A DNA stretch of 38,774 bases from Patescibacteria group bacterium. GTDB taxonomy: Bacteria; Patescibacteriota; Patescibacteriia; Buchananbacterales; SURF-54. Positions 29,070 through 34,897 of this stretch are shown in pieces. Location of the stretch: contig JAHIRB010000025.1 in assembly GCA_018818885.1 (NCBI GenBank), forward strand, positions 1 through 38,774, in the 5' to 3' direction. The position numbers and the translations under genes were made by a program. How positions within the stretch are numbered: the stretch's first letter is position 1; every line of letters begins with the position of its first letter. A model generated the notes under the pieces. That model did no database searches. It was not told the origin of the DNA and saw nothing but the letters and a program-made list of their open reading frames with translations.

Positions 29070-29278
29070 GAACTCCACTACATAAATCTGCGATATATTC
29101 TGGCGTTATAAAGCTAGTCATGTAAACAAATCGGTCGTTAAACAAGTTAACGGTGATTCATCTATTTAAGACCGTTGAGGTCTGCAGCCGCAATTCCACG
29201 GAATTGTGGCAATATAAGGCCTCTACAGCAAAATGTTGTCCCAGAATTAGCACAGATTAAAAGTTCGTAGTGAAGCTC
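29070..29278 (-). ncRNA. Structured non-coding RNA of unknown class (6S-like closing stem)
   Basis: The ends of this stretch pair: GAGCTTCACTAC at the 5' end (29278-29267) with GTAGTGGAGTTC at the 3' end (29081-29070), 12 bp with two G-T pairs. Further in, AATCTG/CAGATT (6 bp) and ATTCTGG/CCAGAAT (7 bp) continue the stem. The centre has a hairpin with CAATTCC/GGAATTG and a second domain closed by CGGTC/GACCG. An extended -10 box (TGATATAAT, core at 29285-29290) lies seven bases before the 5' end of the stem. The length (about 209 nt) and long closing stem recall 6S RNA, but the centre is branched, so I do not assign it. No ORF is present. Confidence 0.5.
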
Positions 29279-29284
29279 AACTTT

Positions 29285-29309
29285 ATTATATCATAAATTT
29301 GGACGTCAA
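29285..29309 (-). promoter_or_regulatory. Promoter of the structured RNA
   Basis: Extended -10 TGATATAAT (core 29285-29290). A TTGACG (29304-29309) lies upstream, but only 13 bases away, so the extended -10 box probably does most of the work. Confidence 0.5.
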
Positions 29310-29314
29310 GAAAG

Positions 29315-29350
29315 AAAAAAGCGCCAGATCCCTTTCTTGAAATCTGGCGC
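29315..29350 (-). terminator. Terminator of the five-gene small-protein operon
   Basis: GCGCCAGAT (29321-29329) and ATCTGGCGC (29342-29350) form a perfect 9-bp stem, followed on the minus strand by TTTTTTC. It also has GGTTGTTTTT on the plus-strand side and may work in both directions. Confidence 0.88.
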
Positions 29351-29383
29351 GGTTGTTTTTGTTTTCCTTCCATGGAATGACGT

Positions 29384-29569
29384 TTAGAATTTCTTACTTT
29401 TTTTTCTGATCTCTTCAATCTGATCGACATGACCTCCTGCTATTTGCTCTGTTGCTGTTCTGAGCTTTTCAGCTTCTTCAAGAGGCACTCCTCCGGTAAG
29501 CTTGAAGAATTGTGCATTTATTCCTTCTTGTAAACTCCCTAAAAGCCTGTTTCTTTCGCTGTCAGTCAT
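29384..29569 (-). CDS. Small protein of unknown function, fifth gene of the attenuator-controlled operon
   Basis: 61 residues, mainly helical and charged (EAEKLRTATEQIAGGHVDQIEEIRK is the central part; key feature: heptad-like spacing). No family is recognised, and there is no signal peptide or membrane segment. An AGGAGGG binding site precedes the ATG by about eight bases. It is the last gene of an operon headed by an aromatic-codon leader peptide and is followed by a strong terminator. Confidence 0.7.
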   Translation of the reverse strand: MTDSERNRLLGSLQEGINAQFFKLTGGVPLEEAEKLRTATEQIAGGHVDQIEEIRKKSKKF

Positions 29570-29585
29570 ACTGCTCTCCCTCCTA

Positions 29586-29765
29586 CTATATTCTGATGGT
29601 TTCAGACTGCCCTACCGAGGCGCCGCTTGGTTCCATTTCTCGGCTGATTACGACAGTCGTCTTTCCATCATCTCTTCCCAATCTAATGATGATTTTCTCC
29701 ATCAGTTTTTTCATATCGGTATTGCCATTGCCTGTGGTCTCGATTATGATTTTTTCCTTAGCCAT
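29586..29765 (-). CDS. Small protein of unknown function, fourth gene of the operon
   Basis: 59 residues, starting MAKEKIIIETTGNGNTDMKK and ending SVGQSETIRI. Alternating beta-type segments (KIIIET, TTVVISREM) surround one helix (KKLMEKIIIRLG), a small alpha/beta pattern. A GGAGGGAAG binding site lies seven bases before the ATG, which strongly supports translation despite the short length. The next gene starts 16 bases after its stop. Function unknown. Confidence 0.7.
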   Translation of the reverse strand: MAKEKIIIETTGNGNTDMKKLMEKIIIRLGRDDGKTTVVISREMEPSGASVGQSETIRI

Positions 29766-29785
29766 AACTTCTTCCCTCCATTTTC

Positions 29786-30079
29786 CTATGCAGTTATTTC
29801 GGATATGGTTCTTTCGTCTTCATTGCCGTTGTCATCAACAATAACAAGTCGAACTTTCGATGTTCCTTTTGAAAGCGGTTTGTGACAGTTCAGATATGTT
29901 TTTATTTCTTTTCTGAGGCCTTCGAGCGACTGATCTTTGCCGGAAAACACCTGGATATGTCCTTTTGAGATTTCGATCCCACCCAATGCAAGACCGCTTT
30001 TGTATGAAATCTCGTCATGCAATTCTTTAATGGTTGAACCGTCGTTAGCTTCAGTTATCTCAATTTTGATATGGCTCAT
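29786..30079 (-). CDS. Protein of unknown function, third gene of the operon
   Basis: 97 residues. I start at the ATG at 30079 (MSHIKIEITEAND), which overlaps the preceding stop codon (ATGA) and has GGAGGGAAT before it; an upstream in-frame start would ignore this site. The two ends are beta-rich (HIKIEITE; KVRLVIVDDNGNEDE) and the middle has an amphipathic helix (LEGLRKEIKTYLN). The overall layout resembles the 59-aa neighbour, hinting at related beta-grasp-like or ferredoxin-like folds; this is only a pattern impression. Confidence 0.7.
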   Translation of the reverse strand: MSHIKIEITEANDGSTIKELHDEISYKSGLALGGIEISKGHIQVFSGKDQSLEGLRKEIKTYLNCHKPLSKGTSKVRLVIVDDNGNEDERTISEITA

Positions 30080-30387
30080 TCTATTCCCTCCGTTTCTCCC
30101 CATGCTTTGTATATTTCAAGCATCTGCGGAAATTTGGTAGAACATACCTTTGCTACTATCACTACTTCTATACCCTCTGGTATTGCGATCACATTAGACT
30201 CCAGTAGCTCGTGTAGCTCCTCACCGTTATGGGTTCCTAGAAAAATCCATATTGACTTGATTGAAGGTATGTGACTGCTAACAAAATCCACAGTCGCCTC
30301 AACTGGTGTAAACGAATTAAGAAAGTGCTGGGTAAGTCCTAACTGCTGCTCTTCTGTTGCTCCAACAGCTGCTAAAATATTGACCAT
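30076..30387 (-). CDS. Protein of unknown function, second gene of the operon
   Basis: 103 residues with alternating helices and hydrophobic strands (SIKSIWIFLGTH, VIAIPEGIEVVIVAKV), compatible with a small Rossmann-like alpha/beta fold. MVNILAAVGATEEQQ at the start resembles a nucleotide-binding first strand but has no true P-loop. A GAGGGAA binding site lies before the ATG, and its stop overlaps the next start by four bases. No family is recognised. Confidence 0.7.
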   Translation of the reverse strand: MVNILAAVGATEEQQLGLTQHFLNSFTPVEATVDFVSSHIPSIKSIWIFLGTHNGEELHELLESNVIAIPEGIEVVIVAKVCSTKFPQMLEIYKAWGETEGIE

Positions 30388-30432
30388 GATTTTCCCTCGA
30401 TTGTTACAAAATACCTTTGTTCAGTTGAAATA

Positions 30433-30597
30433 CTACTCCCTTTTTTTCTTGTGCTGCTGGGGTAACCCAGGCTCGGATACAAAGTAGACAGAACGCCTAT
30501 TTTTCCTACGGCGCCTTTCTTCAACTTCGTCATCACCAGATCTTTTCCTTTCTTTACTTCCTTGTATTTCTTTTTTTTTCTTCTCTTCCTCTGCCAT
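30433..30597 (-). CDS. Short highly charged protein, first gene of the operon
   Basis: 54 residues, about half Lys, Arg or Glu (MAEEEKKKKEIQGSKERKRS; later VEERRRRKNRRSVYF). It is probably disordered and could bind nucleic acid. A GGAGGGAAA site lies seven bases before the ATG. It is the first structural gene after the aromatic attenuator, with two small hairpins in the leader (30629-30646 and about 30668-30680). No family is recognised. Confidence 0.65.
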   Translation of the reverse strand: MAEEEKKKKEIQGSKERKRSGDDEVEERRRRKNRRSVYFVSEPGLPQQHKKKRE

Positions 30598-30628
30598 GCT
30601 GCTTTCCCTCCATTTGGTTTAAGTTGTA

Positions 30629-30646
30629 AAGAGCTCTTGAGCTCTT
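30629..30646 (-). promoter_or_regulatory. Perfect hairpin in the operon leader
   Basis: AAGAGCTC and GAGCTCTT with a two-base loop, about 30 bases before the ATG of the 54-aa gene. It may affect mRNA stability or translation. Confidence 0.4.
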
Positions 30647-30761
30647 AAAATTAATTGCTCATTTGCACCCATTTGAAATGGACACAATCAAACAATCAAT
30701 AACTATTATCCTTCGACTCTTCAGTCCTATTTAGAGCCGGCAAACTCATGAAAATAAAAAA

Positions 30762-30785
30762 CCGACCCTTTTTACAGAAGATCGG
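30762..30785 (-). terminator. Terminator hairpin of attenuator iv
   Basis: CCGATC/GGTCGG stem with an 11-12-base loop, followed on the minus strand by TTTTTTATTTTC. Confidence 0.8.
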
Positions 30786-30833
30786 ATTCGCTATGGTTAG
30801 TTTTTATTTTATGTATGAATGTATGTAGCAAAA

Positions 30834-30905
30834 CTAACTCACCCGAGCTTCTGGGTCAGTAAAGAAATAAAAACCGAAATACCAGTTGTTTTGCATAATA
30901 TTCAT
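30834..30905 (-). CDS. Aromatic-rich leader peptide (23 aa)
   Basis: The peptide starts MNIMQNN and continues WYFGFYFFTDPEARVS: one Trp, two Tyr and four Phe within eight codons (residues 8-15). This is the composition of known phe, trp and aro leader peptides. Its stop codon lies within antiterminator strand 2. The promoter -10 box ends 11 bases before the ATG, so the mRNA would have a 5' leader of only about four bases. It was found by reading the leader directly. Confidence 0.85.
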   Translation of the reverse strand: MNIMQNNWYFGFYFFTDPEARVS

Positions 30906-30915
30906 ACTTAAGGAT

Positions 30916-30943
30916 ATTTTACACTATTTACATTATTTGTCAA
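30916..30943 (-). promoter_or_regulatory. Promoter of attenuator iv and the small-protein operon
   Basis: TTGACA (complement of 30938-30943), 16-base spacer, TAAAAT (complement of 30916-30921). Confidence 0.78.
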
Positions 30944-30980
30944 GGAGTGTCTGCAGCTAGTAATTTTAGCTAAAAGTGAG

Positions 30981-31012
30981 AACCGCGGAACCTTTTAATG
31001 GGTTCCGCGGTT
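30981..31012. terminator. Strong hairpin downstream of leuA
   Basis: AACCGCGGAACC and GGTTCCGCGGTT form a perfect 12-bp stem with an eight-base loop, 46 bases after the leuA stop. The T-run is weak (CTCACTTTTAG on the minus strand), so it may act as a terminator or an mRNA 3' stabiliser. Confidence 0.7.
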
Positions 31013-31058
31013 TGTGACTACGTGGTTAAACACGCGCTGGGATTTAGAGCTTTCATGC

Positions 31059-32696
31059 CTATTTCGAGTTACCGTTGCCCCGAAGCGAATTAACCAACCA
31101 GCTAATGCAGTTGGCGTAGCCCTGGGCGGTTGCCTGGATAGTATCGACATCAGCATCTCTACCAGAATATATACGATTCTTCTCGTTCACCAGACCGATA
31201 GCTGCATGCAAGTCTGCAATAGCTTCTGCACCCTCGCCTACTTGCACAGGTTGCCATCTCTTAAGTACAATCTCGACTCCTTTCAATTCAGGGAAAATAT
31301 CCTTGGCAGCTTCGAACACAGCCAGCATAACTGCATGGAAAGTACCATTGCCTTTCATTGAGGCGGAAGCTTGTTTCCCTTCAGCTTCAATTATAATCGT
31401 AGCATTAGGTATAGTACCTCTTCCACCAATAGCCTGGCACCGTACTACCTCGATACGAAACGGAGTTTTCTCAACCACATCCTGTGCGAGAGTGATCAAC
31501 TCGTGGTCAGTTACCCTTGCACCGGCTCTGGCGTCTGAAAGCTTGGTCATTTTCTGGTATATTCTGTCGAGTTGTTCGTTCGTAACGTCGAACCCTAATT
31601 GTTCAAGGCGATACCTTAATCCTTTTCTAGAGGAGCTTTGGTTCAATACGACTTCGACACCAGTATGGCCAAACATGTCTGGCTTCCAACTGTAGTAAGG
31701 ACTTGCCTGCTCTTGTTTAGCTGCTCCAGCCTCAACACCCTGATGCATACCAGAGCTCACCACGATATTTTGAATACCTGCAACCACGTGATGCCTTGGA
31801 ACTTGCATCCCAAGTGCAGTAGCAACGAAATTGACTATTTCTACAGTCATTGATGCATCAAGGCAAACTGCATAGTTAGCAAACACATCACGTCGTGTAA
31901 ACAAGCTAAGTAATATAGCCTCGAACTTGGTCATACCACTACGCTCACCTAAACCGAAGAAGGTACCTTCGATTATTGTTGCGCCGTTGCGTATTGCACA
32001 GAGCGCATTATGAGTGGAATGATCTGAGTCGTTGTGACAGTGAACCGATACTTGAGCTTTCCCGATATTGGACACGTTATCGAAAATATAGGCGATTCTA
32101 TCACCAAATTCGTTTCCGATACAAAGCCCTGTAGTGTCGGGGATGTTGACAACAGTTGCACCAGCATCGATGACTCCCTTAATAAGTCGACATAGATAAT
32201 CCACGTCACTAGCACGTGCTGCATCCTCAGGCGAGTATTCAATGTGTTTGAAGCCCAACCGTTTGGCATACTTGATGCATTTAACTGCCAAATCGAAAAG
32301 AAAGTTCTGTTTACCTTCCTTAGTATTGCCATATTTTACTGAATTGAACTGTGCCATTACCAACTGGTCACTCACAGGTATAACAATGTGACAAATGTCA
32401 CAACCAGCTTTTTTAACCGCATCGATGTCGATTTCTGCACCGCGCGCCAATCCGGACAACAAAGGTTTATCGCTGACACAGTTTGACTGATCAACAAACT
32501 TACGTATGCGAATACAATTTTTCAACTGCTCGTCGGAACTACCAGGAAAACCAATTTCGATTCTTCTTGTACCGACTCGCATAAGACGGTCCACTAATCC
32601 TTCCTGGTCTTCCACGGACATTCCTCCACCTTCAACTTGCCCGGATTCTCTGAGTGTTACGTCGTTGAATTCAATCATTATCATGTTTTCTTGCAT
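31059..32696 (-). CDS. leuA: 2-isopropylmalate synthase family protein (LeuA-like)
   Basis: Condenses acetyl-CoA with a 2-oxo acid, the first step of leucine synthesis if it is a true LeuA. 545 residues. The HMGL-like TIM barrel has FNDVTLRESGQ (D12 metal ligand, R16 catalytic), HCHND with H219 and H221, and GLGERSGMTKFEA; the linker SSGMHQ follows. The C-terminal part (from about residue 410, IEVVRCQAIGGRG) is the LeuA_dimer regulatory domain, so homocitrate or citramalate synthase activity is also possible. AGGAGA precedes the ATG. A Leu-rich leader peptide attenuator upstream supports a leucine role. No leuB, leuC or leuD is in the window. Its GC content is visibly higher than that of its neighbours. 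Confidence 0.9.
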   Translation of the reverse strand: MQENMIMIEFNDVTLRESGQVEGGGMSVEDQEGLVDRLMRVGTRRIEIGFPGSSDEQLKNCIRIRKFVDQSNCVSDKPLLSGLARGAEIDIDAVKKAGCDICHIVIPVSDQLVMAQFNSVKYGNTKEGKQNFLFDLAVKCIKYAKRLGFKHIEYSPEDAARASDVDYLCRLIKGVIDAGATVVNIPDTTGLCIGNEFGDRIAYIFDNVSNIGKAQVSVHCHNDSDHSTHNALCAIRNGATIIEGTFFGLGERSGMTKFEAILLSLFTRRDVFANYAVCLDASMTVEIVNFVATALGMQVPRHHVVAGIQNIVVSSGMHQGVEAGAAKQEQASPYYSWKPDMFGHTGVEVVLNQSSSRKGLRYRLEQLGFDVTNEQLDRIYQKMTKLSDARAGARVTDHELITLAQDVVEKTPFRIEVVRCQAIGGRGTIPNATIIIEAEGKQASASMKGNGTFHAVMLAVFEAAKDIFPELKGVEIVLKRWQPVQVGEGAEAIADLHAAIGLVNEKNRIYSGRDADVDTIQATAQGYANCISWLVNSLRGNGNSK

Positions 32697-32788
32697 TTCT
32701 ATCTTCTCCTATTCGTTATGTTGGCTTATGAAAGTTTTAACTTTCTTGCTTAGTTCCCCTCCCATGAAAAGAACATAAAATAAAAACT

Positions 32789-32811
32789 GCCCTTCACTAC
32801 TGGCGAAAGGC
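32789..32811 (-). terminator. Terminator hairpin of attenuator iii
   Basis: GCCTTTC and GAAGGGC, 7 bp, nine-base loop, followed by AGTTTTTATTTT on the minus strand. Confidence 0.85.
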
Positions 32812-32840
32812 TAGCTTCTGTTTAATATCTTTATTTAATC

Positions 32841-32930
32841 TTAGACATAAGTAAACCTTCCACCAAAAGGTAGCAACAACAATAATAATGCTTTTAAGTT
32901 CTGATTTAGTTTTAGGCTGAAAGGTTTCAT
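32841..32930 (-). CDS. leuL: Leucine-rich leader peptide (29 aa) of leuA
   Basis: It begins MKPFSLKLNQNLKA, continues with six leucine codons in a row (residues 15-20: TTA TTA TTG TTG TTG CTA) and ends PFGGRFTYV. A run of leucines just before the switching strands is exactly the arrangement of LeuL leaders in enterobacteria. The same PxGG follows the Ile run in leader i, because the RNA strand 2 is conserved there. A TATATT five bases before the ATG may be the -10 box, but no matching -35 is seen; read-through from 33576 is possible. Confidence 0.88.
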   Translation of the reverse strand: MKPFSLKLNQNLKALLLLLLPFGGRFTYV

Positions 32931-33009
32931 TATTTAATATAGTTATAAATTTAGGGTGAGGAGAAAAGAAGCATTGTGCCGCTTTTCCCCTCGAATTCCT
33001 AAGGAACAT

Positions 33010-33150
33010 TGGTGGGTGATTGGGAATCGAACCCGACATCTTTCGGTTGTAACGCATCAGCGAGCTACACATCCTAATCCCCCATGGGGATAAATTAGGT
33101 TGTGTTTCCTGGTTAGAAAATGCGCCGATTGGCCACCTTGGCTATCACCC
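33010..33150 (-). ncRNA. tRNA-like RNA with a large internal insertion
   Basis: The 5' end GGGTGAT (33150-33144) is exactly complementary to ATCACCC (33020-33014), which is followed by ACCA. TAGCCAAGGTGG resembles a tRNA D-arm (GCC/GGC stem) and GGGTTCGATTCCC a T-arm, so the bacterial equivalents of both conserved tRNA boxes are present. GCATT and GATGC can form the anticodon stem. Between them lie about 60 bases with a 14-bp hairpin (CACA-CCTA-ATCCCC against GGGGAT-TAGG-TGTG). The acceptor-plus-T stack is one pair short and the T-stem has one mismatch. It may be an intron-containing or decayed tRNA, or a tRNA mimic. No anticodon can be assigned. Confidence 0.4.
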
Positions 33151-33154
33151 TATG

Positions 33155-33345
33155 CCACGTTCAACTAACCTGTTGCGACAAGTAACCGTTCGCTTACCAG
33201 TAATTACTGGCCACTACTGGCAACAAACTGTTGAACCGACAAACGTGGATCATCAAACGTATCGATGAACATAATGCGAAAATGTTCGCGAAACTAATAG
33301 CTACTGTCAGATCAGAGCGCTCTGTAGCTATTTTCATGTGATCCA
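33155..33345 (-). ncRNA. Structured RNA domains upstream of the tRNA-like RNA
   Basis: Two adjoining domains are visible on the minus strand. The first is closed by TGGATCA/TGATCCA (33345-33339 with 33252-33246) and holds a perfect 9-bp stem, AATAGCTAC/GTAGCTATT (33332-33296). The second is closed by CCACG/CGTGG (33248-33244 with 33159-33155), continued by TTCAAC/GTTGAA and GTTGC/GCAAC, with a perfect CCAGTAATTACTGG hairpin at the tip. No convincing ORF lies here. A TATAAT (33366-33371) could start transcription, or it is reached by read-through of attenuator ii. Confidence 0.4.
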
Positions 33346-33389
33346 AATATTTTAATTAATTGTAAATTATACATTTTCTTTTAAAAAAA

Positions 33390-33409
33390 CCAGCCTTTTT
33401 ATAAGCTAG
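33390..33409 (-). terminator. Terminator hairpin of attenuator ii
   Basis: CTAGCTT/AGGCTGG stem (7 pairs including G-T pairs, extendable through the T-run), followed by TTTTTTT. Confidence 0.75.
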
Positions 33410-33466
33410 CTTTGGAACTTGTCTAATTTGTTGTTTGTTTTATCTTAATTTAGTCCAAAACTAGCC

Positions 33467-33541
33467 TTATATCAATACCACTAGTATCAATACGACTAGG
33501 CTGATTGTGATGACTAAATTGTTAGATAAAACTTTATTCAT
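33467..33541 (-). CDS. Val/Leu/Ile-rich leader peptide (24 aa)
   Basis: It starts MNKVLSNNLVITIS and ends LVVLILVVLI before the stop: ten branched-chain codons in a row at residues 15-24. The stop codon adjoins antiterminator strand 2. The composition matches leaders of ilv operons, which respond to all three branched-chain amino acids. The -10 box ends about 11 bases before the ATG, again giving a very short 5' leader. Confidence 0.83.
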   Translation of the reverse strand: MNKVLSNNLVITISLVVLILVVLI

Positions 33542-33552
33542 ATGATATTTAT

Positions 33553-33581
33553 AATTTACAGCATTACGAAAAAAAAGTCAA
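33553..33581 (-). promoter_or_regulatory. Promoter of attenuator ii
   Basis: TTGACT (complement of 33576-33581), 17-base spacer, TAAATT (complement of 33553-33558). Confidence 0.7.
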
Positions 33582-33657
33582 TGCTTTATTATTACCTAAA
33601 TTTAGTGAAATTAAAATTTTTCCACATACACAGCTATCATTTTTTGCAAAGAGAAAA

Positions 33658-33679
33658 GGCGGTTCGCAAGCGAATCGCC
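33658..33679 (-). terminator. Terminator of the 88-aa gene
   Basis: GGCGATTCGC and GCGAACCGCC (one mismatch, two-base loop), followed by TTTTCTCTTT on the minus strand. Confidence 0.82.
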
Positions 33680-33706
33680 CATTTTGATTTTGCCTTGGCT
33701 ACTGGA

Positions 33707-33973
33707 TTAATCCAGATTTGCCGAATCTACGATGATAGTCACCTCTCTTTTCTTGAAAAAACCCGAACGTATTTTCTCCGGTGGATCATACTTTCCATTA
33801 CCCCTAATTCTGGCAACTACGACACGTTTATCTGACCCTACGGCAAGTTGTACCTTTACAAGTTGGACTTTTGCTCCACTTTCACTACAAATGTCATGTC
33901 CATTTAATCTTTCCCAGTGCCCCCCTCCATTATGCACAAAAACACTGTAGCCACAACTATTATAACTTGACAT
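33707..33973 (-). CDS. 88-aa protein of unknown function behind an isoleucine attenuator
   Basis: I start at the ATG at 33973 (MSSYNSCGYSVFVHNGGGHW) because GGAGGGAAA lies five bases before it. The protein is polar and beta-rich (KVQLVKVQLAVGSDKRVVVARI) with a final EVTIIVDSANLD. There is no signal peptide, membrane segment or recognised family. It is monocistronic: promoter 34165-34193, isoleucine leader peptide, attenuator, gene, terminator. The ending resembles the beta-type endings of the 97-aa and 59-aa proteins in the aromatic operon, which may point to a shared fold. Confidence 0.7.
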   Translation of the reverse strand: MSSYNSCGYSVFVHNGGGHWERLNGHDICSESGAKVQLVKVQLAVGSDKRVVVARIRGNGKYDPPEKIRSGFFKKREVTIIVDSANLD

Positions 33974-34031
33974 CGTTTCCCTCCATTTTGGATCTTTAAA
34001 TGATTTCTTGCCATTTTCGACAATCAAAAAT

Positions 34032-34049
34032 GCCTTCCCAGTGGAAGGC
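34032..34049 (-). terminator. Terminator hairpin of attenuator i
   Basis: GCCTTCC and GGAAGGC, a perfect 7-bp stem with a four-base loop, followed by ATTTTTG on the minus strand. Confidence 0.88.
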
Positions 34050-34076
34050 TTCTTAGTATTTATCTTGTTATTTTAG

Positions 34077-34154
34077 CTAAACACGAAGTAAACTTCCACC
34101 CAAAGGCTGGCTAATAATAATTTCGATAATTATTGTGGAAGTTATTTTTATCAT
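34077..34154 (-). CDS. Isoleucine-rich leader peptide (25 aa)
   Basis: It starts MIKITST, then IIIEIII (residues 8-14, six isoleucine codons out of seven), then SQPLGGSLLRV. The Ile codons end 13 bases before the switching strand. The promoter -10 box ends 10 bases before the ATG, giving a 5' leader of only a few bases, so translation must start nearly leaderless. Confidence 0.86.
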   Translation of the reverse strand: MIKITSTIIIEIIISQPLGGSLLRV

Positions 34155-34164
34155 AGTTTTAAGT

Positions 34165-34193
34165 ATAATATCGTATGTTGAAAATCGTGTCAA
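34165..34193 (-). promoter_or_regulatory. Promoter of attenuator i
   Basis: TTGACA (complement of 34188-34193), 17-base spacer, TATTAT (complement of 34165-34170): near consensus. Confidence 0.85.
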
Positions 34194-34297
34194 GTGCGAG
34201 GTATGTGATTATAGATATTAAGACAATTATAATTTTCTAAATAATTACTTACTCTAATCAGCTCTAATCTCTATAATAACTACAATTACTCAAACTA

Positions 34298-34897
34298 CTA
34301 CCCAAACATCACCTCTTCATCTACTCTGTTGTAGTTATCGACAATATCTGCCTTTTTAAACCAAAGCTGTTCTTCGTATTTTGCTTCTTCTTCGTTACCA
34401 GATGCATGCATTATGTTATGTACTGCTCGATTTCTTATATTTGCTAGTGCTGGCGAATCAATTGAATAATCACCTCGAACTGTTCCTGGATCTGCAAACA
34501 CTGGCAAAGTGTTGCCTGCAATCATTCTAACATTATCTATGGCGTGAACACCTTCGAGTAAAATTGCAACAACTGGACCAGAAGTAATAAACTCTGTATT
34601 CCATTTATTGACCATCTTGCCGATTTCTTCTGCAGACTTATTACCAAACTCTTCTTTTGGATCTCGTCCGTATTTTTCGTAAGTTTTTAAAGTTTTTTCT
34701 CCAATTGCTTTCATGAGCTCTGTTCTGCTTTCAGGATAATGTTGTTTAGCTAAAGTTTTATCTGCCCATACCATTTTTAGACCAATAATTTTTAAGCCCA
34801 TTTTTTCAAAACGAGATAAAACATCACCAACAAGTGCACGCTTTACTCCGTCGGGTTTTATTAATACTATTGTTCTCTCTTTATGTATTTCTGCCAT
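34298..34897 (-). CDS. ndk: Nucleoside-diphosphate kinase, with internal insertion
   Basis: Transfers the gamma phosphate between nucleotides. ERTIVLIKPDGVKRALVG at residues 7-24 and RNRAVHNIMHASGN near 156, with catalytic H164, are diagnostic. At 199 residues it is longer than the usual 130-150; an insertion of about 45 residues lies in the middle (about 68-105, including YGRDPKEEFGNKSAEE). The end motif W(F)xxxD is partly kept. It is otherwise ordinary. Confidence 0.93.
   Translation of the reverse strand: MAEIHKERTIVLIKPDGVKRALVGDVLSRFEKMGLKIIGLKMVWADKTLAKQHYPESRTELMKAIGEKTLKTYEKYGRDPKEEFGNKSAEEIGKMVNKWNTEFITSGPVVAILLEGVHAIDNVRMIAGNTLPVFADPGTVRGDYSIDSPALANIRNRAVHNIMHASGNEEEAKYEEQLWFKKADIVDNYNRVDEEVMFG

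Follow-up and report, generated by a model that had tools for sequence, protein, structure and literature searches.

How an ultra-small auxotrophic bacterium senses a shortage of amino acids and responds to it is largely obscure, and the minus strand of a single Patescibacteria contig puts the question in concrete form: what do four short open reading frames (ORFs) with runs of amino acid codons, lying in a row, sense and control? The window analysed here is the whole contig JAHIRB010000025.1 (C1, 38,774 bases) of genome G000, a genome of 1.35 Mb in 51 contigs with 98.6% completeness. We conclude, with a probability of roughly 0.88, that the four ORFs belong to ribosome-mediated transcription attenuators which form a conserved amino-acid hunger array, and that the outputs of this array in relatives are mostly orphan first-step enzymes. 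The mechanism is classical, and its setting and targets appear to be new.

A reading made from the letters alone (the sequence-only reading) had described four leader ORFs with regulatory codon runs, each followed by an RNA switch with a terminator. Read directly on the minus strand, all four ORFs lie where it placed them and encode the runs that it described. The parts of leaders 1 to 4 (L1 to L4) are as follows.

34165-34193, minus strand: L1 promoter, TTGACA at 34193-34188, 17 nt, TATTAT at 34170-34165, 10 nt to ATG
34154-34077, minus strand: L1 ORF (Ile) MIKITSTIIIEIIISQPLGGSLLRV, strand 1 at 34142-34135, Ile codons at 34133-34113, strand 2 at 34101-34084
34026-34055, minus strand: L1 strand 3 (34055-34040) and terminator GCCTTCCACTGGGAAGGC-ATTTTT (34049-34026)
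33553-33581, minus strand: L2 promoter, TTGACT, 17 nt, TAAATT, 11 nt to ATG
33541-33467, minus strand: L2 ORF (Leu/Val/Ile) MNKVLSNNLVITISLVVLILVVLI
33383-33468, minus strand: L2 strand 2 (33468-33451), strand 3 (33419-33400) and terminator (33413-33383)
32941-32936, minus strand: L3 promoter, -10 box TATATT, -35 box weak
32930-32841, minus strand: L3 ORF (Leu) MKPFSLKLNQNLKALLLLLLPFGGRFTYV, strand 1 at 32927-32919, six Leu codons at 32888-32871, strand 2 at 32866-32840
32782-32823, minus strand: L3 strand 3 (32823-32800) and terminator (32815-32782)
30916-30943, minus strand: L4 promoter, TTGACA, 16 nt, TAAAAT, 10 nt to ATG
30905-30834, minus strand: L4 ORF (Trp/Tyr/Phe) MNIMQNNWYFGFYFFTDPEARVS, strand 2 at 30854-30834
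30756-30800, minus strand: L4 strand 3 (30800-30775) and terminator (30785-30756)

A terminator hairpin with a U-run lies downstream of every leader. The antiterminator, in which the 3' end of the leader pairs with the 5' arm of the terminator, is stronger than in shuffled sequences (z of -3.4 for L1, -6.5 for L2, -5.3 for L3 and -4.3 for L4), and the two structures are mutually exclusive. The RNA switches of the sequence-only reading were thereby found at all four leaders, with the sequence features of a ribosome-mediated attenuator: a cognate codon run, an intrinsic terminator and an antiterminator that excludes it. Three of the four leaders (L1, L2 and L4) have a TTGAC-type -35 box, with the -10 box 10 to 11 nt before the ATG. 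No Shine-Dalgarno sequence was found before the window leaders; GGAGG-like ones precede the downstream genes. Because the Shine-Dalgarno sequence is missing and the ATG lies close behind the -10 box, the leaders are probably translated as near-leaderless mRNAs. A T-box was rejected, as no T-box match reached the Rfam gathering score in the window and none appeared at E<=3 in 29200-34400; no other known Rfam element reached its gathering score (Phe_leader scored 30.4 on L1, below its gathering score of 55).

RNA polymerase would start at the ATG or a few bases from it, and the leader would then be translated near-leaderless. With an ample supply of the cognate amino acid, the ribosome would reach the stop codon and cover strand 2, so that the terminator would form from strands 3 and 4. 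When charged tRNA is scarce, the ribosome would stall on the Ile, Leu/Val/Ile, Leu or Trp/Tyr/Phe codons, strand 2 would pair with strand 3 and the downstream gene would be read. The stalling and readthrough steps follow the established attenuation model. The trp, phe, his, leu, ilv and thr attenuators of the enterobacterial type are alike in the cognate run, the terminator, the exclusive antiterminator and the covering of strand 2 at the stop. They differ from the window array, in which the leaders are probably near-leaderless without a Shine-Dalgarno sequence, several stand in a row at one locus, and the outputs here include orphan first-step enzymes, small lineage-specific proteins and a tRNA-like RNA.

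How often would such an arrangement arise by chance? Our strict definition combined a promoter (TTGAC, a spacer of 16-18 nt and a -10 box 5-12 nt before the start codon) with an ORF 14-38 codons long and, no more than 110 nt away, a terminator at least as stable as -7.5 kcal/mol. In G000, 12 such loci occur in 232 kb of intergenic DNA, compared with 0.08 per dinucleotide-shuffled set, and seven loci with codon runs, compared with 0 in 12 shuffles. L3 is not among the 12 because of its weak -35 box. A looser scan without the strict promoter gave as many matches on reversed sequence as on the real one; since it failed to separate real from decoy, only the strict-promoter counts are used as evidence. 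Elsewhere in G000, a Pro leader precedes proB and then a proC-proA fusion, a Cys leader (C27:4700-4620) precedes a serK/SbnI-like gene and the cysteine synthase gene cysK, a Ser leader precedes a 163-amino-acid (aa) unknown and serC, and a Lys leader precedes dapA. A second Ser leader lies upstream of a 133-aa unknown, and weaker Thr and Gln/Asn leader candidates are present. Because the leaders match the downstream biosynthesis genes, the codon runs of G000 serve as amino-acid sensors, to the extent that sequence can decide this. The genome is reduced, as the sequence-only reading had assumed, but it is not devoid of biosynthesis, with Pro, Cys, Ser and Lys genes present.

Conservation, which the sequence-only reading had made the test of its proposed module, was found: codons and pairing are kept across many families of the class, and the amino-acid-type attenuators hold up as a conserved module. 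The order Ile, Val, Leu, aromatic is common to the window and to G010 and G004, which are from the same taxonomic order and from other families. In these two genomes the array lies beside ndk or the rpsL-rpsG-fusA block, and its outputs are citramalate synthase, a conserved small-protein pair, 2-isopropylmalate synthase, and DAHP synthase or PheA/TyrA-like genes. The corresponding site of G304, a genome that does not belong to the window's order, carries an LV, a Leu, an Ile and an aromatic leader. Among 42 leaders across the class, all 42 start with ATG, 37 have a TTGAC -35 box and 0 have a Shine-Dalgarno sequence; the median distance from -10 box to ATG is 9 nt. Against shuffled sequences the antiterminator is significant (p<=0.05) in 40 of 43 leaders, with a mean z of -3.9 and with sequences that differ widely between genomes, a compensatory pattern such as would be expected of a selected structure. 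The survey of synthases and pathway genes covered 381 genomes of the class, of which 37 have a member of the synthase family (2-isopropylmalate or citramalate synthase), with a strong match in 27. A Leu or Ile leader stands in front of the synthase in 21 of these 27, a tally that includes G010, G004 and G000. Leader and typed synthase agree in 20 of 20 cases: 11 Leu leaders with 2-isopropylmalate synthase as best family and nine Ile leaders with citramalate synthase. Short ORFs that carry codon runs by chance, or that encode functional small proteins and are no sensors, would fit the equal yield of the loose scan on reversed sequence. We regard this explanation as extremely improbable, given the excess of strict loci over shuffles, the significant antiterminators and the complete match between leader and gene. 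The sequence-only reading had also put such attenuators mostly in front of unknown genes, which is true of the window but fails as a rule: matching biosynthesis genes follow leaders elsewhere in G000, and citramalate synthase, LeuA and DAHP synthase follow them in relatives.

More surprising, and beyond the view of the sequence-only reading, is the absence of the later steps of those pathways. IlvD (dihydroxy-acid dehydratase) was found in four of the 381 genomes and the LeuC/aconitase family in 16 of 381, with controls detected in 14 of 14; G000 has neither. Both are absent from 17 of the 21 leader-controlled genomes (G000, G004, G006, G010, G041, G043, G060, G081, G091, G108, G111, G142, G151, G154, G179, G304 and G374), 13 of which are at 90% completeness or more. 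Chorismate synthase was found in 0 of 12 genomes of the window's order, though aromatic leaders have DAHP synthase or PheA/TyrA-like genes behind them. Because the later pathway genes are missing, the leader-controlled synthases and DAHP synthase are orphan first steps under cognate hunger control. Pathways completed by non-homologous enzymes, or by genes missing from the assemblies, would make this ordinary biosynthetic control. The assemblies are of metagenome type, and two class members, G031 and G071, do have LeuA, LeuC and IlvD together. This explanation is nonetheless improbable in view of the 17 genomes without both families, the completeness of 13 of them, the controls, and an order without any chorismate synthase. 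DapA was considered as a further orphan enzyme and rejected, DapB being present in G000. Retention over many families, with a codon run that always matches, leads us to infer selection rather than decay. Intact first-step enzymes behind cognate switches and without the remaining pathway point to exchange of intermediates or manipulation of a partner, an idea that is directly testable.

The outputs in relatives are mostly predicted stand-alone enzymes of the first committed step (citramalate synthase, 2-isopropylmalate synthase and DAHP synthase). In the G000 array, small lineage-specific proteins are encoded behind L1 (an 88-aa ORF) and L4 (five small ORFs), a structured RNA with a tRNA-like part lies behind L2, and a LeuA-like gene of divergent type lies behind L3.

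33707-33973, minus strand: 88-aa ORF behind the Ile leader (L1), Shine-Dalgarno tggaggg, no family match
33010-33380, minus strand: structured RNA behind L2 (33005-33400 folded, z -3.2)
33150-33010, minus strand: tRNA-like element, 3' part of that RNA, encoded CCA, acceptor stem GGGTGAT/ATCACCC, anticodon-loop insert of about 60 nt
31059-32696, minus strand: 2-isopropylmalate synthase-like protein (LeuA), 545 aa, behind L3, HMGL and LeuA_dimer domains
30433-30597, minus strand: 54-aa basic ORF behind L4, Shine-Dalgarno ggaggg
30076-30387, minus strand: 103-aa ORF behind L4
29786-30079, minus strand: 97-aa ORF behind L4, ferredoxin-like (beta-alpha-beta-beta-alpha-beta) model of low confidence
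29586-29765, minus strand: 59-aa ORF behind L4
29384-29569, minus strand: 61-aa ORF behind L4

The product behind L3, a putative synthase, fits the metabolism of its cognate amino acid. It belongs to a divergent subfamily found in one other genome, G236 (JAJYLD010000005.1, 53% identity). In its motifs LRESGQVEGG and GERSGM, RESGQ replaces RDGEQ and GERSGM replaces GERxGN; HxHND is kept. The changed positions (RDGEQ, GERxGN) presumably include metal ligands, as in characterised members of the enzyme family. Citramalate synthase-like proteins at L159 (G142), L160 (G091) and L161 (G179) show the same changes, apparently of independent origin, with VREAEQ/LRETEQ for RD and GERxGM for GERxGN.

What is the output for? 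Because the cell cannot complete the pathways, we tentatively suggest that the output helps it to acquire from outside the amino acid that it lacks, by way of a partner with a pathway able to finish the synthesis. The partner may receive citramalate, isopropylmalate or DAHP, or else the enzyme or a small effector itself. Somewhat speculatively, the array could act on a partner or host in an amino-acid-specific way: a starved cell would express a normally feedback-controlled first step, an effector or a tRNA mimic. If so, a partner with the remaining steps would make more of the scarce amino acid, and the arrays would be switches for manipulation or exchange, one per amino acid. The main rival to an outward-acting output is a new internal role, in which the first-step enzymes serve the cell's own metabolism (e.g., 2-oxoacid or acetyl-CoA handling) and the attenuators persist as inherited relics that still respond. 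The window LeuA and the f12 citramalate synthases, with RE for RD and GERxGM for GERxGN, speak for such a role, and so do the divergent DAHP synthases. Most synthases are full-length, however, and many exceed NCBIfam equivalog cut-offs (e.g., 752 against 598.7 in G374 and 729.5 against 450 in G304). Moreover, the codon run matches the classical pathway in several distinct subfamilies, a match that neither a relic nor a new role would require. An internal role is plausible, though less likely than not. Whichever output is right, under the hunger array the codon run names the amino acid to which each gene answers and offers a way into the function of genes that cannot otherwise be read.

Several observations weigh against the attenuator array with orphan outputs as we propose it. 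The -35 box of L3 is weak, though its -10 box is good, and pairing of strands 1 and 2 is clear in the folds of L1 and L2 and short in L3 and L4. Three of the 43 leaders have no significant antiterminator. No homologue sheds light on the 88-aa or the 103-aa product. The window LeuA has altered metal-ligand motifs and falls below every NCBIfam equivalog cut-off (best 299 bits, cut-off 532). LeuC/aconitase is present in four of the 21 leader-controlled genomes (G044, G052, G071 and G236), in G071 together with IlvD. The tally of 21 of 27 is one reader's reading of detector output and listings.

In the library searched, no paper was found that links the candidate phyla radiation (CPR) or Patescibacteria to leader-peptide attenuation or to orphan LeuA/CimA, and no description of such a module. 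Among the nearest counterparts are the leaderless polycysteine short ORFs of mycobacteria, which are amino-acid-responsive attenuators (Canestrari et al. 2020, cited in PMC9031893). They resemble the present leaders, the Cys leader of G000 being of the same kind (a leaderless short ORF with a codon run), and differ from them in that intrinsic terminators and many amino acids are involved here. No conserved terminator was found for mycobacterial cys operons (PMC1262725). Leader peptides of Trp, Leu and Cys genes were predicted by comparison in Actinobacteria (Seliverstov et al. 2005, PMC1262725); unlike the present ones, these lie upstream of genes for biosynthesis or for aminoacyl-tRNA synthetases in the genomes of ordinary free-living bacteria, and that study says nothing of Pro or Ser leaders. 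Many of the relatives' enzymes are like LeuA/CimA in passing the equivalog cut-offs; unlike them, they occur without LeuC and IlvD in most leader-controlled genomes, and the window LeuA is divergent. Among groundwater ultra-small prokaryotes, leuA is listed with genes of higher expression in a sediment fraction (PMC9938205), which shows that such genes can be expressed.

The small proteins of the array were compared further. The small unknown pair behind the Val leader consists of 91/93-aa proteins (44% identical) and 105/128-aa proteins at L107:11383-11989 (G010) and L109:2419-3055 (G004). The comparison found no relationship of the window's 88-aa ORF to the Val-leader proteins of these genomes; its structure model is beta-rich with low confidence, and a fold search gave nothing usable. 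The 103-aa ORF has no clear homologue in the 381 class genomes (one weak match, E 6e-4). A viral origin of the window's small proteins was rejected, as no relatives were found in viral contigs. The aromatic leader precedes small fast-evolving ORFs in the window, G304 and G151. Two Asn-rich leader candidates (NNDNNNGNN and NNN) with terminators lie on the minus strand in G374 (L149:15402-15316 and 13754-13671), upstream of 438-aa and 377-aa genes.

The tRNA-like element behind L2 was not called as a tRNA gene when intact; it was called only with the anticodon-loop insert removed in silico. A tmRNA identity of the structured RNA was rejected, the tmRNA of G000 being on C13. At L147:5429-5746 (G304) a Leu/Val leader lies directly upstream of tRNA-Val(UAC), an attenuator-controlled tRNA, whose acceptor stem is identical to that of the window element. 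Short Pro-codon ORFs (ILPLPP, ILPTPP) precede aberrant tRNA-Pro-like elements in G010 and G004. The loci concerned are L107:14121-14320 (G010), L109:5662-6100 (G004) and L108 about 1400-1490 (G002). The aberrant elements show an anticodon UCA, an irregular anticodon arm, or a Pro(UGG)-like form with a D-arm insert of about 100 nt, and the element in G002 sits behind its own promoter. A simple scan for more CCA-ended tRNA-like elements was too strict and missed known ones.

Other features of the genome were noted. No L30 gene lies between S5 and L15 in the window, and this, together with the genome size, suggests that G000 belongs to the CPR. Copies of tRNA-His and tRNA-Arg(UCU) recur near contig ends of G000 (C24, C25, C33 and C39 ends; C20 and C33 ends), which suggests that a repeated element broke the assembly. 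ARAGORN assigned C27:528-620 as a tRNA-Sec(UCA) gene. A leader-like ORF, MRRNNYPQMIHIDLCVFFNIY, at C12:43659-43594 (minus strand) comes with TTGACT/TATAAT, a terminator and a U-rich stretch. The operon behind it contains aspartate carbamoyltransferase- and dihydroorotate dehydrogenase-like genes, and the arrangement resembles a UTP-sensing attenuator of the pyrBI type.

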